Positions 2,313-33,881 of a DNA stretch of 33,881 nt are shown here, piece after piece. Location: positions 1 through 33,881 of the forward strand of contig WFXH01000069.1 in NCBI GenBank assembly GCA_015490715.1. Direction: 5' to 3'. Positions within the stretch are counted from its first letter, which is position 1. Every line of letters starts with the position of its first letter. The translations under genes and the position numbers were made by a program. Origin of the DNA: Saprospiraceae bacterium (GTDB taxonomy: Bacteria; Bacteroidota; Bacteroidia; Chitinophagales; Saprospiraceae). The notes under the pieces are model-generated. The model saw nothing but the letters and a program-made list of their open reading frames with translations, was not told the DNA's origin and made no database searches.

Positions 2313-3707
2313 CTACAGCTTGATCATCCGCCGGACAATGGCCTCTTCGCCCTCAACGATGATGCGCACGAAGTACAAACCCCTCGGAAGGTCTTGCACC
2401 TCTACGCGCACGCGTCCATGCCCCTTCCATTCCTTCAGCCTACGGCCCCTACGGTCGAAGACCATCACTTTCCATGAACGATCCATGCCGAGCTCGAGCA
2501 CATCGACACATGGGTTGGGCCTCAAGACAAAAGGACTGTGGTCATCCTCGTTAGGGCCAGCAACGGCTGTGACGAGCGGCACAATTTCAAGCGTATCGTT
2601 TTCGTCAAAGGGATTTGACCACTTTTCTGCCGTAAAAATAGTAGGGCTCACAAGTGTATTCAGGAAGCTAATGATAGAAACTCTATCGTACTCGCTCAGG
2701 CGTATTTCGTTTTCGGATCCTTGCAGGCGCTCGTCCAAATTGGGCACCGGGGGCTTGGATGCCACCTCTTCGTAGTGTAGCATCACATCATAGAGTGTCT
2801 TTAGACTAAAATCGTGCATAAAGGGGCCAAGTTCTATACCGTCGCGATCAAAGAGATTGCGCAGCGAAGGCGCATTAGTGACGGATGTATCGATCGAGTG
2901 CCCGCCATGGATGACGCCGACAATGCCGTTGTTTTTCGATTGGGGGTCAATGCCAAACTCTGGAGGCACATGGCAGCGAAAACAACCCGCGCCGCCGTCT
3001 TTGGGAAGCGTCATAAACAAGCGCTTGCCGTGATTTTCCATCTCGGTAAAATTCGGAAAATCGACCGTATCGCTTTGCACCATGGCACGCCCCGAATCGT
3101 ATTTGCTGTCAAAGGCGTAGATGCTCCGAACAAACTGCGCCAGAGCCAACTGGATGCGCTCCTCCGTAATGGCCGTGTCGCCAAAGGCAAATTCGAAGAG
3201 TACGGGGTAGTATTCGATTTGGCGCATGCGACGAAGCAGCGAATCCATACCAGGGCGCCCGTATTGACCGCTAAAACCCATCTCGAGATGGTCCTTGATG
3301 GGCACCGTCGCTTGATCCTCCAAACTCTTGGCTCGTTCGTCCCAGAAAGCATGGGGCTCCGCTTTAAACCCCGCATAGGCAATGCGCATGGTGTGCCGCA
3401 ACGGTGGCCCAAAAGCACCACCACTTATGCGAAAGGTGTCGCCAAAGGAAAACTCCTGCTTGTGACAGCTGGCACATGCAATGCGCTTGTTCAAGCTCAA
3501 ACGCTTGTCGTAAAAGAGTACCCTCCCCAACGTCGCCCCTCGATTGGTGATGGGATTGTGCTGCGGTATGTTGTGATGCACGATGTATGATGGAATACGC
3601 TCCCCCTCATAGTCGTATAGCGCATTGAGATCAATGACGCCACCTGCCCAAAGAACCAACAAACAAATGATGGATCCCACACTCCACAATATCCTCTTCA
3701 CCTTCAT
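2313..3707 (-). CDS. Di-haem cytochrome c peroxidase / MauG-family protein with T9SS type A sorting domain
   Basis: 464 residues. A hydrophobic N-terminal export signal (residues 5-23) precedes a two-domain bacterial cytochrome c peroxidase fold. Two CxxCH haem sites are visible: CASCH at 78-82 and CFRCH at 242-246. A conserved FMHD segment near 296-299 corresponds to the region that supplies the axial Met (peroxidases) or Tyr (MauG) near the second haem; Met is present here. Bacterial CCPs reduce hydrogen peroxide using electrons from small c-type cytochromes or act on protein or organic substrates. After the catalytic part, residues ~393-464 form a typical T9SS type A sorting domain (LRPNP start, GLYFVRI, final VRRMIKL), so the protein is predicted to be exported across the outer membrane rather than kept periplasmic. 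It precedes the large surface protein gene. The substrate cannot be told from sequence. Confidence 0.9.
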   Translation of the reverse strand: MKVKRILWSVGSIICLLVLWAGGVIDLNALYDYEGERIPSYIVHHNIPQHNPITNRGATLGRVLFYDKRLSLNKRIACASCHKQEFSFGDTFRISGGAFGPPLRHTMRIAYAGFKAEPHAFWDERAKSLEDQATVPIKDHLEMGFSGQYGRPGMDSLLRRMRQIEYYPVLFEFAFGDTAITEERIQLALAQFVRSIYAFDSKYDSGRAMVQSDTVDFPNFTEMENHGKRLFMTLPKDGGAGCFRCHVPPEFGIDPQSKNNGIVGVIHGGHSIDTSVTNAPSLRNLFDRDGIELGPFMHDFSLKTLYDVMLHYEEVASKPPVPNLDERLQGSENEIRLSEYDRVSIISFLNTLVSPTIFTAEKWSNPFDENDTLEIVPLVTAVAGPNEDDHSPFVLRPNPCVDVLELGMDRSWKVMVFDRRGRRLKEWKGHGRVRVEVQDLPRGLYFVRIIVEGEEAIVRRMIKL

Positions 3708-7574: not shown

Positions 7575-8432
7575 TTAAAAGGGATTGTTCCTGCGCAAGT
7601 ACACTCGCAGTTTTCGCAGGGCTTTACGACGGTATTGCCGCACGCGCTCTTCGCTGAGTTCGAGCGCTTGGGCAATTTCCTCTACGCTGTGGGAAGGATA
7701 CCCACAAAGACCATAGGCGCGACAGATGACCTCGCGCTCAATGGGGTTGAGTATGTTGAGCATCAATTGCATTTCATCCCGAAAAGATTCTTTGAGCAAG
7801 GCCTCATCGGGCATAGTATCGCTCTCCTTCTTCGAGATCAAATCGGCTAAGGTGACATCGCCCTCATCGCGATCGATGGGCTGATCCATCGAATAGGGCT
7901 TTTTAAATTTTTGAAGGATGTCGTGCACGGTCGCTTCCTTCAACTGCAACATTTCGGAGAGCTCTTGCACGGTAGGCTCGCGCTGATGCTGCTGTAGAAA
8001 CTGTAGATAGGCCTTGTTGATCGTAGAGTAGAGGCTTATCTTACTGCCCGGCAAGCGTACCAGGCGCGCATTGTCTACAATAGCTTGCAGGATGGCCTGG
8101 CGTATCCACCATACGGCATAAGAGATAAACTTAAACCCACGCGTGGGGTCAAAGCGGCGAGCCGCCTTGATCAATCCCAGATTACCTTCGTTGATGAGAT
8201 CGATCAGAGGTAAGCCGAAGTTCTGGTATTGCTTGGCCACCGACACGACAAATCGAAGATTGGACTTCACCAGCTGCGCGACGGCCTCCTCATCTCCCTG
8301 CTGGATGCGCTGCGCCAGTTCGACCTCCTGCTCTGGCGTCAAGACAGGAATGCGACTGATCTCACTGAGATACTGCTCGAGCGCATGGCTATCTCGAATG
8401 GTGATTTGCGGTACAATTTTCAATTGGCGCAT
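7575..8432 (-). CDS. rpoD: RNA polymerase sigma factor, RpoD/SigA family
   Basis: 285 residues, the normal size of the short Bacteroidota primary-type sigma factor. The start is taken at the ATG at 8432 because the protein then opens with MRQLKI, the usual family N-terminus; a GTG 39 bases upstream is less likely. Regions in order: 1.2 (LEQYLSEISR), 2.1-2.4 (LRFVVSVAKQYQN, LIDLINEGNLGLIKA, FDPTRGFKFISYAVWWIRQAI), 3 and 4 (SVEEIAQAL, then ERVRQYRRKALRKLR). Regions 2.2-2.4 are strongly conserved. Region 3 (IVDNARLVRLPGSKIS) and the 4.2 recognition helix differ from the usual RERVRQIKEKA pattern: Glu261 stands where E. coli sigma70 has Arg584. It may be the primary sigma factor or a close paralogue; the window cannot decide. 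Confidence 0.9.
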   Translation of the reverse strand: MRQLKIVPQITIRDSHALEQYLSEISRIPVLTPEQEVELAQRIQQGDEEAVAQLVKSNLRFVVSVAKQYQNFGLPLIDLINEGNLGLIKAARRFDPTRGFKFISYAVWWIRQAILQAIVDNARLVRLPGSKISLYSTINKAYLQFLQQHQREPTVQELSEMLQLKEATVHDILQKFKKPYSMDQPIDRDEGDVTLADLISKKESDTMPDEALLKESFRDEMQLMLNILNPIEREVICRAYGLCGYPSHSVEEIAQALELSEERVRQYRRKALRKLRVYLRRNNPF

Positions 8433-8536
8433 CGCTCGGCCAGCTGTTTGGTTTTTCTGTCGTGTATGCACACGTCCTTAACTATAACTGTTTTATCCCA
8501 TATATAGTATGATTGTTGTCGAGACAGCCTGCTGAG

Positions 8537-9646
8537 CTATGTCAGACGCATATAGGCCGAGCCAGGGCACGATTTAATGAGTCCCTTCATTTCCAATCCC
8601 AACAGTAGGGTCGACAGTCGCGGGATGGTCCACCGCGTAGCTGCGACGAGATTTTCAAGCGGTACTTCCACGCCTTTGGGAAGATGGGACAGCAGCTCTT
8701 TTTCCTCGTCGTCCAGCTGAGGGAACATTTCCATTTGTACACCACTGTCTTTTCGCGCATTTTGCCATTGGAGGCATTCGACGATGTCTTCGGCGCTCCG
8801 CACGAGCTGAGCCGTCTGGTTGTAGATGAGATAATTCGTGCCTTCGGACTTTTCGTCGGTTGCGCGTCCGGGCACGGCTAGGACTTCGCGGTGGTAGTCT
8901 ACGGCATACTGGGCCGTAATCATTGAGCCACCGCCGCGCCCCGATTCGACGATCAATACGGCATCGCTCAGGGCCGCTATGATGCGATTGCGCGCCGGAA
9001 AGCGCTCCTTGTACGGGCGATGCCCCTTGGGGTACTCCGTCAACAACCCCCCCTGTCGAACAATCCGCTCGGCCAAACCCTTGTGTAAGGCTGGGTACAA
9101 TGTGTCCATCCCATGCGCCAAAACAGCTACCGTATCCATGCCCTGCTCCAAAGCTGTGCGGTGTGCCAGCGCATCGATTCCATAGGCGAGTCCGCTGACA
9201 ATGAGTATATCGTACCCACTCAAATCCCGCAAGATCGCCTCGGTCATGTACATGCCATACGAGGTCGGCGTTCGCGTGCCTACCACTGCAAGAATGCGCC
9301 GCCGGTTGAGTGGCGCAGATCCCTTATAAAAGAGCAGCAGCGGGGCATCCGGCACTTCTTTCAGACGCACCGGGTAGCCCTCATCCCAATAGGGTAACAG
9401 GCGAATGTCTTGTGCCTCGTAGTACGCCATCTCCTCTTGGACATCCTCCTGAGGGTTAGCGGCTGCAATTTCCCGTGCTATGGCCTCCGTCACTCCGGGC
9501 ACCGACATCATCGCTTCGGTCGACGCCTCAAACACCGACCTCACACCTCCAAATTGCGCCACCAACAAGCGCACCGTCTTCGGCCCCAATCCCGCTATGC
9601 GGGTTAACGCCAACAATGCAGCCAATTCCTCCACAGACGCATGCAT
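8537..9646 (-). CDS. dprA: DNA-processing protein DprA
   Basis: 369 residues. DprA binds incoming single-stranded DNA in natural transformation and loads RecA. Visible parts: N-terminal helix-hairpin-helix/SAM-like region (TRIAGLGPKTV, 15-25), then the Rossmann-type DprA/Smf domain with VVGTRTPTSYG (121-131), SGLAYGIDALAH (151-162), FPARNRIIAALSD (216-228), SGRGGGSMITAQYA (235-248) and GTNYLI (269-274). A C-terminal winged-helix-like part (about 310-369) follows. All core motifs are intact. It starts 16 bases after the stop of the TMTC-like gene, with an AGG-containing site upstream. It is followed by the sigma factor gene after a 104-base gap. Confidence 0.96.
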   Translation of the reverse strand: MHASVEELAALLALTRIAGLGPKTVRLLVAQFGGVRSVFEASTEAMMSVPGVTEAIAREIAAANPQEDVQEEMAYYEAQDIRLLPYWDEGYPVRLKEVPDAPLLLFYKGSAPLNRRRILAVVGTRTPTSYGMYMTEAILRDLSGYDILIVSGLAYGIDALAHRTALEQGMDTVAVLAHGMDTLYPALHKGLAERIVRQGGLLTEYPKGHRPYKERFPARNRIIAALSDAVLIVESGRGGGSMITAQYAVDYHREVLAVPGRATDEKSEGTNYLIYNQTAQLVRSAEDIVECLQWQNARKDSGVQMEMFPQLDDEEKELLSHLPKGVEVPLENLVAATRWTIPRLSTLLLGLEMKGLIKSCPGSAYMRLT

Positions 9647-9662
9647 AGGATGTCCTTTTACC

Positions 9663-11558
9663 TCAATTCAAAGTTACTGCTTTCTCCCGATACTCCTCCC
9701 TCTTGCGGAGCAATTGCTCAAGCTCCTCCCTCCGTAGGGTGTTCCCCCTTTGCGCCTCCCTTAAATACCTGTCGAGCACCTCCAAGAGCGCTCGGAAATA
9801 CCTCGGACGCCGCGCGACACCTTCCCCATAGGCCAAATAGCGATAGGCATCTGCCACATTGCCCATGCGTCGATACAAAGTGTTGTACCCAAGACGCAGG
9901 AGAAAATCTTCCATCGACGCTGCATCCTCCCGCTTCAACAAATAACGAATGAACTCCTCGACAAACGGAATGCGCGGATAGCGCTGTACCACGACATCAA
10001 ATTCGTCCAGTAATTCTCCTAAGTGGCCATCGATTTTATACAACTCCGCAGCCACGCCTGCACGCATACGCCAGGCGTCGTAATACTCCGGATAGATGTC
10101 GGTAGCCCGTATAAAATGCTTCTTCGCCCTCAGGAAGAGCGCTCGACGCTCGGACCGATCGCTCTCATCAAGCGCCTTTTTGAAGTAACTCACGCCAACA
10201 AACAAATTGAGGCGCGCGCTGTTGCGCGACACCTTGATGCCCGCAGTATTGAGATGAAATTCGTCCTTCCATGCCGGTATGCGCGTACTCGTGCGAAAGG
10301 CATATGCCAGTGCAATGACCAAGAAGAGCCCAAGCCCCCAATAGCGATAGCGCCGCTCAAGCCCCTCCAGACCCTTGGCCAGTACAGCGACAAATCCCAC
10401 CGACGGCATAAAGAGAAAGCGCTCGTTCATAAACGTCCCCACTGTGAAAAATATATTCGACACGGGCAGCAAGGCAAGTAGATAAAATGCAATAAAAAAT
10501 CCATACCACCGCCGTCTCCACACACCCCTCCACATCCAATAGAGCAGTAAGCCGTACACCACCACCGACACCACCGGCAGTACTTCATCCCAACTATGGA
10601 TCCGAATATGATAGGGATAGTAATCGTGTGTCAGGGGATGGGGAAACACCAATAATTGCAAATATTTCAACAACACATACGCTATCGTCGCCCATTTCTC
10701 AGTGGTGTCCATCTCCAGAAAGGGATTGTTGATCAAAGATTGAAACTCCAACGGCCCTTGTAGGAAATAACCGATCACCCGGATACGCCACCCAATATAC
10801 ACACCCACCCACAGCATAAAGTAAGCAAAAAGCCGGAGGACACGCCTAAAGGGCCATCCAAAAAAGGTCCACAACATGAGGGGAGCCAACACCGCCAGGA
10901 CCACGGCATGCTCCTTGGACAACACGGCGAGCACAAAACAAAGCGTAGCCCCACCGAGCCATCCATACCGCCGACTCTTATAATACCGTACCACACTTAT
11001 CAACATACCCAGACCAAACAACAAGGCCAGAATTTCATCTCGCCCCTTGACGTTGGCGACAGCTTCTACATGCACGGGATGCAGAGCAAAGAGCCAGCTG
11101 GCCAAATAGGCCACATCGCGCCACCAGGGTGCCACTACTCCCCATCCCAGCATGCGCAACCACACATACAGCATCCACACCACCAGCACATAGAGCCACA
11201 CATTGATCAGATGCGCCCACGAAGCCGCACCACCAGTGATTTCATACTCCAAGGCAAACGTCACAAGCGACAGAGGCCGATAGCGAGCCCCTTCCACCAG
11301 ATTTCGCTGCCCCCGAAAATACCCCGCAAAGCTCTCCTCCGTCAGAATCTTCCCAATACCCCTCCATCCTTCCTGCACATAGGTGTTCTGCGAATAGACC
11401 AGCTTGTCGTCGAGCACAAAATCGTAGTCGACCGTACGAATATACAGTGCTACAACCGCTGCGAACAACACAACGACTTTCCAAAACTCCACCTGGCCAA
11501 ATAGATGCACTATGCCTTTCATCCTCTGTATGAAATCGTAGATTTGCGTCCGCATCAT
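9663..11558 (-). CDS. TMTC-like multi-pass membrane glycosyltransferase (GT-C) with C-terminal TPR-like region
   Basis: 631 residues. The N-terminal two thirds carry roughly ten hydrophobic helices. Motifs match the TMTC/DUF1736-type GT-C family: acidic pair DD at 50-51 after the first helix, YRP at 93-95, HPVHVEAVANVKGRDE at 160-175 and SKEH at 214-217. In animals TMTC proteins transfer mannose to protein Ser/Thr from a lipid-linked donor; bacterial members are mostly uncharacterised. From about 430 on, a soluble TPR-like helical region follows (SYFKKALDESD, HFIRATDIYPEYYDAW), matching the family's GT-C plus TPR layout. It is transcribed with dprA and diverges from the secreted-protein gene at 11624. 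Donor and acceptor are unknown. Confidence 0.85.
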   Translation of the reverse strand: MMRTQIYDFIQRMKGIVHLFGQVEFWKVVVLFAAVVALYIRTVDYDFVLDDKLVYSQNTYVQEGWRGIGKILTEESFAGYFRGQRNLVEGARYRPLSLVTFALEYEITGGAASWAHLINVWLYVLVVWMLYVWLRMLGWGVVAPWWRDVAYLASWLFALHPVHVEAVANVKGRDEILALLFGLGMLISVVRYYKSRRYGWLGGATLCFVLAVLSKEHAVVLAVLAPLMLWTFFGWPFRRVLRLFAYFMLWVGVYIGWRIRVIGYFLQGPLEFQSLINNPFLEMDTTEKWATIAYVLLKYLQLLVFPHPLTHDYYPYHIRIHSWDEVLPVVSVVVYGLLLYWMWRGVWRRRWYGFFIAFYLLALLPVSNIFFTVGTFMNERFLFMPSVGFVAVLAKGLEGLERRYRYWGLGLFLVIALAYAFRTSTRIPAWKDEFHLNTAGIKVSRNSARLNLFVGVSYFKKALDESDRSERRALFLRAKKHFIRATDIYPEYYDAWRMRAGVAAELYKIDGHLGELLDEFDVVVQRYPRIPFVEEFIRYLLKREDAASMEDFLLRLGYNTLYRRMGNVADAYRYLAYGEGVARRPRYFRALLEVLDRYLREAQRGNTLRREELEQLLRKREEYREKAVTLN

Positions 11559-12238: not shown

Positions 12239-15016
12239 ATGAGACAAACCCTAAACCTTACAAAATCTATCGGCAGTTGGAGGTCTATCTTCCTCATAGC
12301 GGTAGTAGTACTACTTTGGAGTACGGCGCTTTATGCCACCCACAACCGCGCGGGAGAGATCACCTTTGTTCAGACGGGACCCCTCTCGATACGCTGTACG
12401 ATTACGACGTATACCAAAGCCAGTAGTGTCGCAGCCGATCGCGATAGTTTGCTCATCGTCTGGGGCGATGGCACCTCGGAGTACGTCCGACGCATCAACG
12501 GCCCCAATGGCAAAGGCGAACTCATCGGCAACAACATCAAGTACAACATCTACATCGCCGAACACCGCTATCCCAGCCGCGGACAATACACCATTTCCAC
12601 CTTCGACCCCAATCGCATCAGCAACATCATCAACATCCCCTCATCGGTCGACGTACCCTTTTACATCGAAACCACCCTCACCCTCCTCGATCCCGTTTAC
12701 CAGGGCTACAACAACTCCGCTATCCTCCTACAACCACCCATCGATATCGGTTGTCTCCATCAGCCGTTCATTCACATTCCCAATGCCTACGACCCCGATG
12801 GCGATAGCCTCGCCTTTGAGCTCATCGTCCCCTACCAGGCAGAAAATACCCCCGTCAGCGGCTACGCGTTTCCGGATGAAATCTTACCCGGTCCGGCCAA
12901 TGTCGTCCACTTTGATCCGCAAACAGGCACCTTCCTCTGGAACAGCCCTCAATTAGAAGGCGAATACAATATCGCTATCCGCATCAAAGAATACCGCAAC
13001 GGCATACTCATCACCTCCATTGTCAGGGATATGCAAATCTTCATTGCCGAATGCGAGCGCAACAGCCCACCGCAAATTGAAGTCCCTTCCGACACTTGCG
13101 TCATCGCTGGCTCCACTCTTCGTCTTCGCATCATCGCAACCGACCCTGCGGATCCTCAACAGAAGTTACGGCTCACCGCTTTGGGCAGTCCTTTTTCGCT
13201 ATCCATCTCTCCTGCCCAATTTACTGCCCCAACTTTTCACGCACCTCAACCCGTCGAAGGTACTTTTATCTGGAAGACCAATTGCCACCACATCAGCCAA
13301 CGCTATTACTCCGTCGTATTTAAGGCCACCGACGACTACTTTGCCGATGGCCAGCAATACGACGACACCACGGGATTGAGTACCCTCAAGCTGTGGCGTA
13401 TCAAAGTGGTCGCCCCCCCACCCCGACTGCAATCCTGTAGCTATACACCTGAGGGGGTTCGACTCGCCTGGGAATATCCCTCCCTCTGCGATACAGCGTC
13501 CAATTACTTTTTGGGATTTCACATCTGGCGCGCAAGCCAACCCGTATACCTCCAACCCGATACCTGTAGCCCCCCTAATCTTGAGCACTCCTACCGCCTC
13601 ATCCGCTATTTCTATACCGATCGAACCGATGGGGACTATGTCTTTTTCGATACTACCGTCGACCAACGCAAGACGTACTGCTATCGCATTACAGCCGTAT
13701 TTGGCAAGCGCACAGCATCGGGCACTCCATACAATATCACTCAGAGCCTACCTTCAGAAGAGTGCTGTATTAGCACGGGCTTGGATCTCCCCTTTGTATT
13801 AAACGTTGATGTGCGACATACCGATGCAGATACGGGGGTTATCTACGTGCGCTTTTTGACACCTTCTGTTGATGCCATCGATACCACGCGAGTGAATGGG
13901 CCTTACACTTTCCGATTATTATCTAAAACGCCAAGGACCACCACACCAGAAGAGCTCTTCTCGTGGACAGTACCCAACCTCGACACGCCCCTCGCCTTCC
14001 ACTATCTCCATCGCGCTATCAACACACGAGATTCAGCTTATGCATACACCGTCGAAATGTACACCAATACACAGCAGGCTTCCAACTACTACGGACGCTC
14101 CGAATGGGCCACATCCCTTTACGGTCGTGCCCAGCCTCTCAATCGGGCGGTGCTACTTCAGGCGGAAGCAACCGTACCATGGAAAAACTTTTTGTACACC
14201 TACTACCGATGGAATCCCCTCACCGCCCAGTGGGACAGCCTGGGCAGCAATAGCTATCCGAGCTGGATCGACACACCTCTGATCAACGACTCGACGTATT
14301 GCTATGTCATACGTTCGATGGGTACTTATGGTCTCAATCAACTGCCCACCCCGCTCATTAATCATTCCCAGGTGTTTTGTGCGCGCCCCCACGACAATAT
14401 CCCACCCTGCCCACCAATCCTCCACATCAGCAATATTTGTACGGATGTCAACTACGGCGAAGATCGATATTCCAATACACTGGTGTGGTCTTTACCCGAA
14501 GGATGTATCCCCGAAGACGGCATGGTCTATCAATTGTTCCATCGCTCCTTCGCTGACGATAGCTTCCATCTACTCCACACCAGTCCAGCCGACGGAGCCA
14601 ACCATTTCATACACACCCTCGACAAGAGCATAGGGGGATGCTATTTTATCCGCGTTGTCGATAGTCTTGGCAATCTCAGCACAGTCGACGATACGATTTG
14701 TGTGTACGACTGTGTAAAATACGTGCTGCCCAATACCTTTACACCCAACGGTGACGGTTACAACGATGTGTTTCGACCCAGGGTCATCCAATTTGTCAAA
14801 AGTGTGGATTTTCGCATCTACAACGAATGGGGACAGCTCATATGGAAGACCACCGATCCCAATATCAATTGGACGGGTGTCGATCTTAACGATAATCCCG
14901 TATCCGACGGCGTGTATTACTACACCTGTCAGGTGGTACCCTATGTCGAGCTCTCCGTGCCGAGTGATTCGCTCAACCTAAAGGGGTTTATTCACGTCAT
15001 CCACAATCAGAGGTAA
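12239..15016 (+). CDS. T9SS type B (gliding-motility-associated C-terminal domain) secreted protein
   Basis: 925 residues. Signal peptide at 1-33 (hydrophobic core IFLIAVVVLLWSTALYA). The mature protein begins THNRAGEITF, the start of a conserved N-terminal module found in many Bacteroidota proteins of this class (about 34-270, with WGDGTSEY, AYDPDGDS and EYNIAIRIKEY). Fibronectin/Ig-like beta segments fill about 280-825. The last 97 residues (829-925) are a T9SS type B sorting domain: VLPNTFTPNGDGYND, FRIYNEWGQLIW, DGVYYYTCQV. Such proteins are exported by T9SS and held at or released from the cell surface, often in adhesion or gliding. Its stop codon is immediately followed by the ribE ATG with no gap. 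Confidence 0.92.
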   Translation: MRQTLNLTKSIGSWRSIFLIAVVVLLWSTALYATHNRAGEITFVQTGPLSIRCTITTYTKASSVAADRDSLLIVWGDGTSEYVRRINGPNGKGELIGNNIKYNIYIAEHRYPSRGQYTISTFDPNRISNIINIPSSVDVPFYIETTLTLLDPVYQGYNNSAILLQPPIDIGCLHQPFIHIPNAYDPDGDSLAFELIVPYQAENTPVSGYAFPDEILPGPANVVHFDPQTGTFLWNSPQLEGEYNIAIRIKEYRNGILITSIVRDMQIFIAECERNSPPQIEVPSDTCVIAGSTLRLRIIATDPADPQQKLRLTALGSPFSLSISPAQFTAPTFHAPQPVEGTFIWKTNCHHISQRYYSVVFKATDDYFADGQQYDDTTGLSTLKLWRIKVVAPPPRLQSCSYTPEGVRLAWEYPSLCDTASNYFLGFHIWRASQPVYLQPDTCSPPNLEHSYRLIRYFYTDRTDGDYVFFDTTVDQRKTYCYRITAVFGKRTASGTPYNITQSLPSEECCISTGLDLPFVLNVDVRHTDADTGVIYVRFLTPSVDAIDTTRVNGPYTFRLLSKTPRTTTPEELFSWTVPNLDTPLAFHYLHRAINTRDSAYAYTVEMYTNTQQASNYYGRSEWATSLYGRAQPLNRAVLLQAEATVPWKNFLYTYYRWNPLTAQWDSLGSNSYPSWIDTPLINDSTYCYVIRSMGTYGLNQLPTPLINHSQVFCARPHDNIPPCPPILHISNICTDVNYGEDRYSNTLVWSLPEGCIPEDGMVYQLFHRSFADDSFHLLHTSPADGANHFIHTLDKSIGGCYFIRVVDSLGNLSTVDDTICVYDCVKYVLPNTFTPNGDGYNDVFRPRVIQFVKSVDFRIYNEWGQLIWKTTDPNINWTGVDLNDNPVSDGVYYYTCQVVPYVELSVPSDSLNLKGFIHVIHNQR

Positions 15017-32135: not shown

Positions 32136-33881
32136 CTATGGTTTGGGCTCGATGAGCACCATCTTCCTGGTCTGAGTAAAGCCCTTCGTACGGAGTTCGT
32201 AATAGTACACGCCGGGGCCATTGAGCTCGTCGTAGCGGATGACAAAATCATGGCGTCCGCGCTCAACCCGGGTTTGCTTGACAAGAATTTGTTGACCTTC
32301 GGTGGTATAAACGTGTAAGCTGACTGCCATGTCCGTCGGAACGATGTACCCAATGTTGGTCGTATGCTTGAATGGGTTGGGCTCGTTTTGGAGTAAAATG
32401 ACGGACTCTACAGCACGCTGGAGCTCGATGCGATAAGTTTGAAGTGTTGCATCGTACATCTCGGGCTTCAATCGACCACTCTGCAGATGGACCGAGGACA
32501 TCCATTGCTCGATGTCGTCGGAGCGCACGACGAGCTCAAACCACACCTGTCGCCCTGAAAGTGCGATGGGATTCGCCGGGGTGGTCCAACTCATGCGCAG
32601 CTCTCCATCTGAGGGCAGGAAGAATTGGTCTTCGTCGATGGGGAGCGTCGCAGATTCGACACGTACGATTTCACCCCACTGCGGACGATACTTCAATGCC
32701 AATTGGTATCCCGAGAGCTGCATGTCCGCATCGGTGTAAAATCGGACGCGATAAGTCTCTTTCCCATCGATCTTGTATTGCATCTGCAAGGTGATGGTGG
32801 GCAGGGCACGCGCATGCCCATCATCGTCTAATCGCGCATCACCAGAGACATCACCTACTTTGATGGCGAGGAAATCCGCATCCATGACGGAATGATCGAG
32901 TTGTGCCATTTCGTACATCTCTGGGAATGGCCACGGCTTTCGGGGATTTCTGAACCGATGATCGCGCTGTACAAAGCGCCACGAGCTATTGCCGATCCAC
33001 CCAAAGCCGCGCTTTCTACCCAGAATGATACTGCGCAGAGCGGCAATATCGGCTACACTGATGTCTTGATTGTTGTTGACATCGGCAGCAATGAGCTGAT
33101 ATGGGGTTTGCAACATCTTACGGCCAAGAATGTGGTTTTGGATAGCCACCAGATCACGTGTACTGACACCGAGGAGCGGCTTCCAATTGCTGGTGGGACG
33201 TATGACGTAGTTGTCGCCTTTGACCATATTGCGGAAGCTATATCGACCGCTGCTATCGGAAAGTTGCATGCTGGCGTATTGGTCGTTGTGGTCCATATGC
33301 ACCTGCACGCCCGGGAGTCCTTTCCTGTCGTTGAGGTTGAACACCGTTCCAGCGATGGACACATTGACTCCCGAACAGGCATCCTGATTGTCTTGTATTT
33401 CGACGATGACTTCGCAATAGTCTTGATTGCCGTCCTTGTCGGTCACCCACATTTGCACGCTGTTGGTACCTAAGTCATCGCATGTAAAGACGCGCGATTG
33501 TTCTGCAGTGTCGCTGCTAAAGGAGAAGATCAAATCTTCTGCAGCTGTGCAATTGTCAAAGCTACCGGCATCAAGATCCTTCGCCCATACCTCAATCGCT
33601 CCACTCGCAGGCATCACTACCGTCACAATGCCGTCCTCACAGTACGGCGTCGGAGCCTTGCAATCTCGAACCTCAAATACCAACGTACATACACCCACAT
33701 TGCCGCAGCCGTCTTCCACAAACCACTGGATCATGTGCTCGCCCACAGGATACGTGCCGCTCGCACTCGTCGGATCCTGCTCATTGTCCGCCCACGGATT
33801 GTCAAAGTCCGCTGCCGACTCGCCAGGTACCGCCTTGCCCACATACACATCGTACGTGCCGTACTTGCCACTGCCATCGTC
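32136..33881 (-). CDS. T9SS type A surface protein with dockerin-like repeats, C-terminal part (runs off right edge)
   Basis: 581 codons are open from the right edge to the stop at 32136; the N-terminus is outside. Order within the fragment: HYR/Ig-like repeats with paired Cys (1-~170, e.g. QWFVEDGCGNVGVCTLVFEV); a carboxypeptidase-regulatory-like beta domain (about 174-226, VNVSIAGTVFNLNDRKGLPG); and a dockerin-like pair (about 239-289, STRDLVAIQNHILGRK and DVNNNQDISVADIAALRSIILGR) with Asn/Asp calcium-type loops. A cohesin-like beta region follows (about 350-480). The last ~85 residues are a T9SS type A sorting domain (LLQNEPNPFKHTTNIGY, GVYYYELRTKG, RKMVLIEPKP). Predicted to be secreted and surface-attached. 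Role unknown; adhesion or matrix assembly is plausible. Confidence 0.9.
   Translation of the reverse strand, partial: DDGSGKYGTYDVYVGKAVPGESAADFDNPWADNEQDPTSASGTYPVGEHMIQWFVEDGCGNVGVCTLVFEVRDCKAPTPYCEDGIVTVVMPASGAIEVWAKDLDAGSFDNCTAAEDLIFSFSSDTAEQSRVFTCDDLGTNSVQMWVTDKDGNQDYCEVIVEIQDNQDACSGVNVSIAGTVFNLNDRKGLPGVQVHMDHNDQYASMQLSDSSGRYSFRNMVKGDNYVIRPTSNWKPLLGVSTRDLVAIQNHILGRKMLQTPYQLIAADVNNNQDISVADIAALRSIILGRKRGFGWIGNSSWRFVQRDHRFRNPRKPWPFPEMYEMAQLDHSVMDADFLAIKVGDVSGDARLDDDGHARALPTITLQMQYKIDGKETYRVRFYTDADMQLSGYQLALKYRPQWGEIVRVESATLPIDEDQFFLPSDGELRMSWTTPANPIALSGRQVWFELVVRSDDIEQWMSSVHLQSGRLKPEMYDATLQTYRIELQRAVESVILLQNEPNPFKHTTNIGYIVPTDMAVSLHVYTTEGQQILVKQTRVERGRHDFVIRYDELNGPGVYYYELRTKGFTQTRKMVLIEPKP

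Follow-up and report, generated by a model that had tools for sequence, protein, structure and literature searches.

The locus at the start of the window (the whole stretch of DNA analysed here: 33,881 nucleotides, positions 1-33881 of contig C69, from a Saprospiraceae genome of 2.45 Mb and 98.6% completeness) raises the question of where a di-haem enzyme of the CCP/MauG superfamily acts, and on what. A sequence-only reading had taken the gene at positions 2313-3707 for a di-haem peroxidase that a C-terminal sorting domain of the type IX secretion system (T9SS) carries beyond the outer membrane, and had proposed the product of the next gene, a large Cys-rich protein, as its partner. On balance we lean towards a MauG/MbnH-like di-haem oxidase at the cell surface, driven by H2O2 and perhaps modifying the giant Cys-rich protein; the substrate in this proposal is one that we infer.

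The coordinates of the gene are correct, and reading of the open reading frame (ORF) places it on the minus strand, where it encodes a protein of 464 residues (P0001). The ORF, the profiles PF03150 and TIGR04183, the structural model and its fold matches together describe a di-haem CCP/MauG-like enzyme with a T9SS type A tail (positions 2313-3707, minus strand). It begins with a hydrophobic signal sequence at about residues 1-22 (3642-3707, minus), the end of which was set by eye and which the model shows as a helix at residues 2-19. The two haem c motifs lie exactly where the earlier reading had put them, CASCH at residues 78-82 (3462-3476, minus) and CFRCH at residues 242-246 (2970-2984, minus), and their cysteines and histidines (C78, C81, H82, C242, C245 and H246) are invariant in the 81 rows of our alignment. 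With these two motifs and a PF03150 CCP_MauG score of 133.2 bits against a gathering cut-off of 25.6, the protein belongs to the superfamily. The best NCBIfam score is for MbnH (TIGR04039, 142.1 bits against a cut-off of 362.85), and MauG (TIGR03791) gives 105.1 bits against 443.85; judged by these family cut-offs, the window enzyme is neither MauG nor MbnH and so falls outside both named families. Its closest named relative, L004 (93% identity), comes from a Saprospiraceae MAG, on a contig identical to one in G1134, a genome of the same genus as that of the window.

The description as a di-haem peroxidase stands at the level of the superfamily, but a conserved tyrosine in the alignment points to a MauG/MbnH-like oxidase and not to a classical cytochrome c peroxidase, and the label would have to be widened to that extent. 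Tyr312 (2772-2774, minus), the predicted distal ligand of the six-coordinate haem, Trp122 of the conserved FWDER motif (3342-3344, minus) and Glu142, the probable acid-base catalyst (3282-3284, minus), are invariant in 81 of 81 aligned rows, as are the Cys and His residues of both haem motifs. Trp122 aligns with the FWD of solved peroxidases and Glu142 with the glutamate of the EM motif in 6e1c and 1iqc. At the position of Tyr312 the MauG-like 6e1c likewise has Tyr, whereas the classical peroxidase 1iqc has Met; judged solely from this alignment, the enzyme has the distal ligand of the MauG/MbnH type and has Tyr where the Met/His high-potential haem of the classical bacterial enzyme has Met. 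The AlphaFold model, built from the 81-row alignment with a mean pLDDT of 91.8, finds its best solved fold match in 6e1c, a MauG-like protein of copper homeostasis (Z 31.0, 2.7 Å over 306 residues), followed by MauG (Z about 25.7, 30% identity) and BthA of Burkholderia (Z 24.7-25.0). The classical peroxidases 1iqc and 3o5c share the fold, the two CxxCH motifs, the Trp and the Glu, and 1iqc differs in the Met at the ligand position. The EKWSNPFD motif that closes the enzyme domain (residues 361-368, 2604-2627, minus) is invariant in 25 rows and variable in the wider set; its WSNPF corresponds to FSDPW in MbnH/6e1c, which resembles the window enzyme further in its ligand Tyr but differs in that the window enzyme carries a T9SS tail, scores far below the family cut-off and resides in a genome with no MbnP.

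The available excerpt of PMC6405878 separates classical peroxidases from MauG by Met/His as opposed to Tyr/His ligation, the latter resembling Tyr312, and describes how MauG forms a bis-Fe(IV) state and oxidizes Trp residues of its partner protein. The tyrosine therefore suggests, at the level of alignment, that the window enzyme oxidizes protein. It is no proof of protein modification, because BthA, whose six-coordinate haem is also Tyr-ligated (although it has Ser in place of Trp between the haems), is still an efficient H2O2-reducing peroxidase with an external donor in the same excerpt (PMC6405878). That precedent, together with the CCP_MauG fold and the conserved catalytic residues, lends weight to a different account, in which the enzyme is a surface peroxidase that scavenges H2O2 coming from outside, takes its electrons from small molecules in the surroundings or from cytochromes at the surface, and has no specific protein substrate. 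We regard this as a serious candidate, though not one that we expect to prevail; the evidence from the neighbouring genes and from the linkers, considered below, also bears on it. MauG-type oxidation requires just peroxide and a substrate and so fits an extracellular location.

Classical bacterial cytochrome c peroxidases are periplasmic, as is MauG in its known role, and MauG is not known to carry a T9SS tail. For the C-terminal part of the window enzyme the earlier reading had claimed a T9SS type A-like domain at about residues 393-464. We find such a domain at residues 391-464 (2316-2537, minus), behind a linker at about residues 381-390 (2538-2567, minus) in which residues 381-387 have pLDDT values below 50. 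A profile search identifies this region as T9SS: TIGR04183 gives 23.5 bits with the whole protein and 27.6 with the tail alone, above the NCBIfam cut-off of 23, while PF18962 gives 22.6 and 26.5 bits and just misses the Pfam cut-off of 27. By sequence the tail is a weak, marginal T9SS type A domain, but a real one. The model folds residues 391-464 as a beta-sandwich, with pLDDT block means of 84-94 following the low-confidence linker. In a fold comparison of Foldseek matches, the tail fits NucA (8glk) with Z 10.5 and 1.9 Å over 72 residues, and also mirolase (8qb1, Z 10.1), FspA (8glj, Z 9.9), PorZ (Z 9.0) and RemA (8gl6, Z 8.8). The fold alone is unspecific, because DUF3244 sandwiches match the tail almost equally well (Z 8.7-9.2). 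Taken together, however, profile and predicted fold make a convincing case for a T9SS tail. In both respects the protein resembles the type A cargo proteins NucA, FspA, RemA and mirolase, from which it differs in being a covalent di-haem enzyme.

The T9SS machinery is present in the host. The window genome encodes SprA (2129 bits) and PorU (1074 bits), which we take to be the secretion pore and the sortase that removes the tail and anchors the cargo, respectively; the pore and the sortase to which a T9SS cargo would be addressed are thus both at hand. The genome also holds a cytochrome-c assembly protein (148 bits) and 60 matches to TIGR04183, 52 of them over the cut-off, the window enzyme included. 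Among 14 control genomes, those with matches over the cut-off number none for SprA, none for PorU, one for TIGR04183 and eight for the cytochrome-c assembly family. These results weigh against the idea that the enzyme is periplasmic and that its C-terminal Ig-like domain is no secretion tag. The Pfam score below cut-off and the near-equal fit of DUF3244 sandwiches speak for this idea, as do relatives such as BthA, which is predicted to be periplasmic in the excerpt consulted (PMC6405878). Against it stand the match of profile and fold to T9SS cargo tails, the recognition at E 0.01 of 69 of 74 tails by TIGR04183 (and of 69 of 74 by PF18962, the window's tail included in this set), the secretion machinery in the genome and the mutual exclusion of tail and lipobox that is set out next. 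We consider a periplasmic enzyme very improbable.

We built an enzyme-domain profile and searched sampled genomes with it. At E 1e-115, matches occurred in 58 of 396 genomes of the order and 27 of 395 of the class; at the looser threshold of E 1e-60, 38 of 395 genomes of the phylum sample matched, 10 of them above 500 bits. The samples overlap. The regions from the sampled genomes and 25 loci from a contig search, less four duplicates (all tailed) removed from the sampled-genome set, gave 122 distinct proteins, of which 111 score above 450 bits, not counting the window enzyme. Two CxxCH motifs are present in 109 of these 111, and in the other two the second motif is CxxxCH; in Phaeodactylibacter luteus (L027) the tailed enzyme is duplicated in tandem (8148-9632 and 10010-11479), both copies with a CxxxCH second motif. 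The C-terminal extension, which the earlier reading had suggested seeking among CCP/MauG homologues, is found in 69 of the 111 relatives (23 of 25 proteins from the contig search and 46 of 86 from the sampled genomes). The 42 tail-less proteins end no more than seven residues from the end of the profile, and the lipoproteins among the relatives stop a few residues from the position of EKWSNPFD.

The tail-less proteins mostly carry another address. A lipobox cysteine is detected by a simple rule in 33 of the 42 tail-less proteins as against one of the 69 tailed ones (Fisher p 7.5e-19, a value that ignores relatedness), and L004, the near-copy of the window enzyme, has no lipobox by this rule. 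The single tailed exception, L015, is probably a chance match inside a signal peptide. Five of the nine tail-less proteins missed by the rule are plainly lipoproteins by eye (L084, L086, L087, L112 and L148), and two gammaproteobacterial ones (L017 and L020) become lipoproteins once an upstream start is used; no signal is readable in L146, which starts right after a stop, or in L097, the frame of which is interrupted upstream. With 33 found by rule, five plain by eye and two with an upstream start, 40 of the 42 tail-less forms look lipid-anchored from their sequences. L017 and L020 are from Granulosicoccaceae MAGs and are close relatives, with 46-47% identity in the enzyme domain, for which transfer from Bacteroidota or misbinning are possible explanations. 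A quick tree of 121 enzymes requires nine changes of the tail label, compared with 38 in shuffles; many forks of this tree are weak, and its well-supported branches force four of the nine, so the address appears to have been swapped repeatedly. The split between tail and lipobox among 111 relatives, with an address that switched several times on the tree, is a new observation.

Bacteroidota lipoproteins are sent to the surface by the motif C-X-K-(D/E)2-X, with the lipid-bearing Cys as +1 (PMC5080379, available to us in part). Compared with 67 neighbouring lipobox ORFs, for which start codons were called mechanically, the 33 rule-positive tail-less forms more often have Lys at +3 (20 of 33 as against 12 of 67), Asp or Glu at +4 (18 of 33 as against 12 of 67) and at least one Asp or Glu within +3 to +6 (31 of 33 as against 36 of 67). 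The strict motif occurs in two of 37 lipoprotein relatives, L097 being left aside because its Cys is a haem Cys; the signal is thus one of enrichment in sequence, not proof. Since residues of the export motif are enriched in the lipoprotein forms, both addresses, tail and lipid anchor, may point outside the cell. Because the relatives carry one or the other, the enzyme is likely to be at the cell surface and not inside the envelope. The claim that it works outside the outer membrane has accordingly gained from four sides, namely the profile match, the predicted fold, the secretion machinery of the genome and the distribution of lipobox and tail among the relatives, and we regard surface localization, as predicted from sequence and model, as well supported.

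We then turn to the possible target. As the earlier reading noted, the next gene downstream encodes a large Cys-rich protein: it is a real ORF on the minus strand, separated from the enzyme gene by 42 nt (2271-2312), and its product has a signal-like N-terminus and 45 Cys in the 756 residues encoded before the contig ends (3-2270, minus; 6.0% Cys). The neighbour is conserved in the clade. The gene runs off the start of the contig and is incomplete, so the C-terminus of the protein is seen only in the relative L115; a match on contig C32, considered as its continuation, was rejected as a paralogue at 31% identity. The proposal that the giant protein is a partner holds in part. The same gene follows the enzyme gene in four genomes of two genera: the window, L004 (same genus), G476 (L115) and G1176 (L204, cut by the contig end). 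It is not found beside the other relatives. In L115 the two genes are 49 nt apart, and the giant protein has 1830 residues and 76 Cys, is 50% identical to that of the window over 751 residues and ends in a CHU_C-like T9SS region that, with 21.5 bits, stays under the Pfam cut-off of 27. Identity to the window enzyme is only 55% and 49% for the enzymes of the second genus, so the two genes have stayed together through considerable divergence.

The giant protein belongs to a larger family. Of 398 genomes of the taxonomic family, 74 contain matches to its N-terminal part, up to four in each; mostly no more than four candidates per genome were scored. In G476, G1134, G1176 and the genus g174 the protein is multi-copy, the long copies having about 1770-1940 residues and 71-80 Cys; in the L004 copy PKD_6 is the lone Pfam domain, and the NCBIfam scan of that copy returned no match. 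We read 20 copies in 17 loci, excluding L183 as the continuation of the L204 gene (94 of 95 overlapping residues equal), and one of the 20 adjoins an enzyme gene (L191, identical to L004). With the window, L115 and L204 added, the enzyme is adjacent to four of 23 copies and absent from the stretch read around the other 19, an absence that counts for little at the several copies that sit at contig ends. The nine g174 genomes with a giant gene hold distant CCP paralogues only (best 216 bits), and five of the nine have no enzyme-profile match at 1e-115. Eleven positions separate the N-terminal parts of the enzyme-adjacent copies from 14 other copies; they include one shifted Cys (C110), no Trp and no Tyr. 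In a tree with weak inner forks and long branches, however, the copies next to an enzyme do not group as a single clade across the two genera. With a multi-copy family and 19 of 23 copies away from the enzyme, the giant protein was rejected as a dedicated partner everywhere, and by these sequence comparisons the partner idea would hold only inside the clade of the window enzyme.

Nor did the expectation of a large T9SS gene beside the tailed relatives survive. Downstream neighbours were available for 65 tailed relatives; the 21 that lie on the same strand within 200 nt show no match to the tail profile, whereas eight of the 65 match it when any orientation is allowed. This profile detects type A tails and misses type B-like ones, of which L115 has an example, and contig ends truncate some of the neighbours. 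Clustering of 923 neighbouring ORFs (simple ORF caller, at most five per side) gave no partner present in more than 14 loci, and the top cluster consists of sigma factors. The family as a whole shares no conserved partner gene, so a dedicated protein substrate lacks family-wide backing, which favours the scavenging peroxidase introduced above; the operon with a giant surface protein, conserved in the clade of the window enzyme, argues mildly in the other direction.

A further mild hint of a protein-linked role, and hence against a scavenger, comes from 12 of the 69 tailed relatives, which have extra sequence between enzyme and tail. The inserts of L014, L016 and L061 are MopE-type PF11617 repeats that score over the cut-off; those of L013, L018, L019, L026 and L060 are, by eye, Cys-repeat modules, with one to several units of about 60 residues around 'GCDSIR.L.L' for which the domain scans reported no Pfam family; and those of L065, L066, L068 and L117 are other sequence. 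At eight loci genes for an ECF sigma factor and a Spy-like periplasmic protein lie just upstream of the enzyme (L007, L074, L075, L077, L105, L120 and L122, and also L147), with a small protein, possibly an anti-sigma factor, between the two in seven of the eight. This cassette occurs with both lipoprotein and T9SS forms of the enzyme and is absent at the window locus. A Pfam scan of the L007 sigma factor and three Spy-like proteins placed the sigma factor and one Spy-like protein (L007, LTXXQ) over the cut-off, and all matches to Metal_resist below it.

By analogy, the repeats and the cassette recall the copper-linked pairs SACCP/MopE, CorB/CorA and MbnH/MbnP (PMC3912023 and PMC3621798, both in excerpt). 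The enzyme might then handle copper, forming kynurenine from a Trp in a copper-binding protein at the surface. The closest solved structure, the copper-homeostasis protein 6e1c, agrees with such a role, as do the fused PF11617 repeats, the sigma/Spy-like genes and the shared surface location of SACCP and MopE (PMC3912023, in excerpt). The cassette is missing from the window locus, however, and only one of the three scanned Spy-like proteins passes its Pfam cut-off. An MbnH/MbnP pair was looked for and rejected: of 80 genomes with a relative, 63 contain MbnP-like TIGR04052 matches, all below the cut-off; where a match shares a contig with an enzyme, the smallest distance is about 30 kb (G150), and the window genome has no match at E 1e-5. 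The PF11617 repeats, moreover, may bind Ca and not Cu, and we think a copper-handling enzyme improbable.

We therefore return to the surface MauG/MbnH-like oxidase, for which four steps can be proposed. The protein would be exported by Sec and have its haems attached covalently in the periplasm, as the cytochrome-c assembly gene of the genome suggests. The tail would then very probably direct the protein, already loaded with haem, through the type IX pore, after which PorU would cleave off the tail and anchor the enzyme on the surface; we infer this step because the tail is present and SprA and PorU are encoded in the genome. Environmental H2O2 would probably be activated at the five-coordinate haem and the oxidizing power stored across both haems, the second being held, by homology, by Tyr312. 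Finally, and far more tentatively, surface targets might be oxidized by removal of electrons, which would make a periplasmic cytochrome donor unnecessary; the likeliest target would be the giant Cys-rich protein in the clade of the window enzyme and the linker-fused domains in some relatives. A fuller version, to which we attach little probability, is extracellular maturation: the exported, haem-loaded enzyme, displayed throughout the phylum by tail or lipid anchor, would use environmental H2O2 to modify the giant Cys-rich T9SS surface protein encoded in its operon, with cross-links, quinones or kynurenine as the proposed products.

A surface protein of the di-haem peroxidase family is not new in itself, because Methylococcus capsulatus, in which no T9SS is expected, has SACCP on its surface together with MopE. 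SACCP is co-transcribed with this surface partner, and differs from the present case in that MopE is a copper protein, a comparison made by description and not by sequence from an excerpt of PMC3912023. Our search of the open-licence PMC literature found no account of a T9SS-borne CCP/MauG protein, and none is described in the excerpts of PMC8115612 and PMC6610971; likewise, the literature searched yielded no covalent di-haem enzyme exported by the T9SS and no case in which such export alternates with a lipid anchor.

Maturation in the periplasm is the role for which MauG-type enzymes are mainly known. If our reading is correct, a family tagged by two interchangeable routes for the outer membrane or beyond it would amount to peroxide-driven surface chemistry in many Bacteroidota. 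Because attachment of haem c takes place in the periplasm and so precedes passage across the outer membrane, the system would also allow a clean test of T9SS transport of cargo that is already folded and covalently loaded with haem. The window encodes two other probable T9SS cargo proteins, one at 12239-15016 (plus strand) with a gliding-type (type B-like) C-terminus by eye, and one at 32139-33848 (minus strand) with a Por_Secre_tail match and a TIGR04183 score of 35.5 bits.
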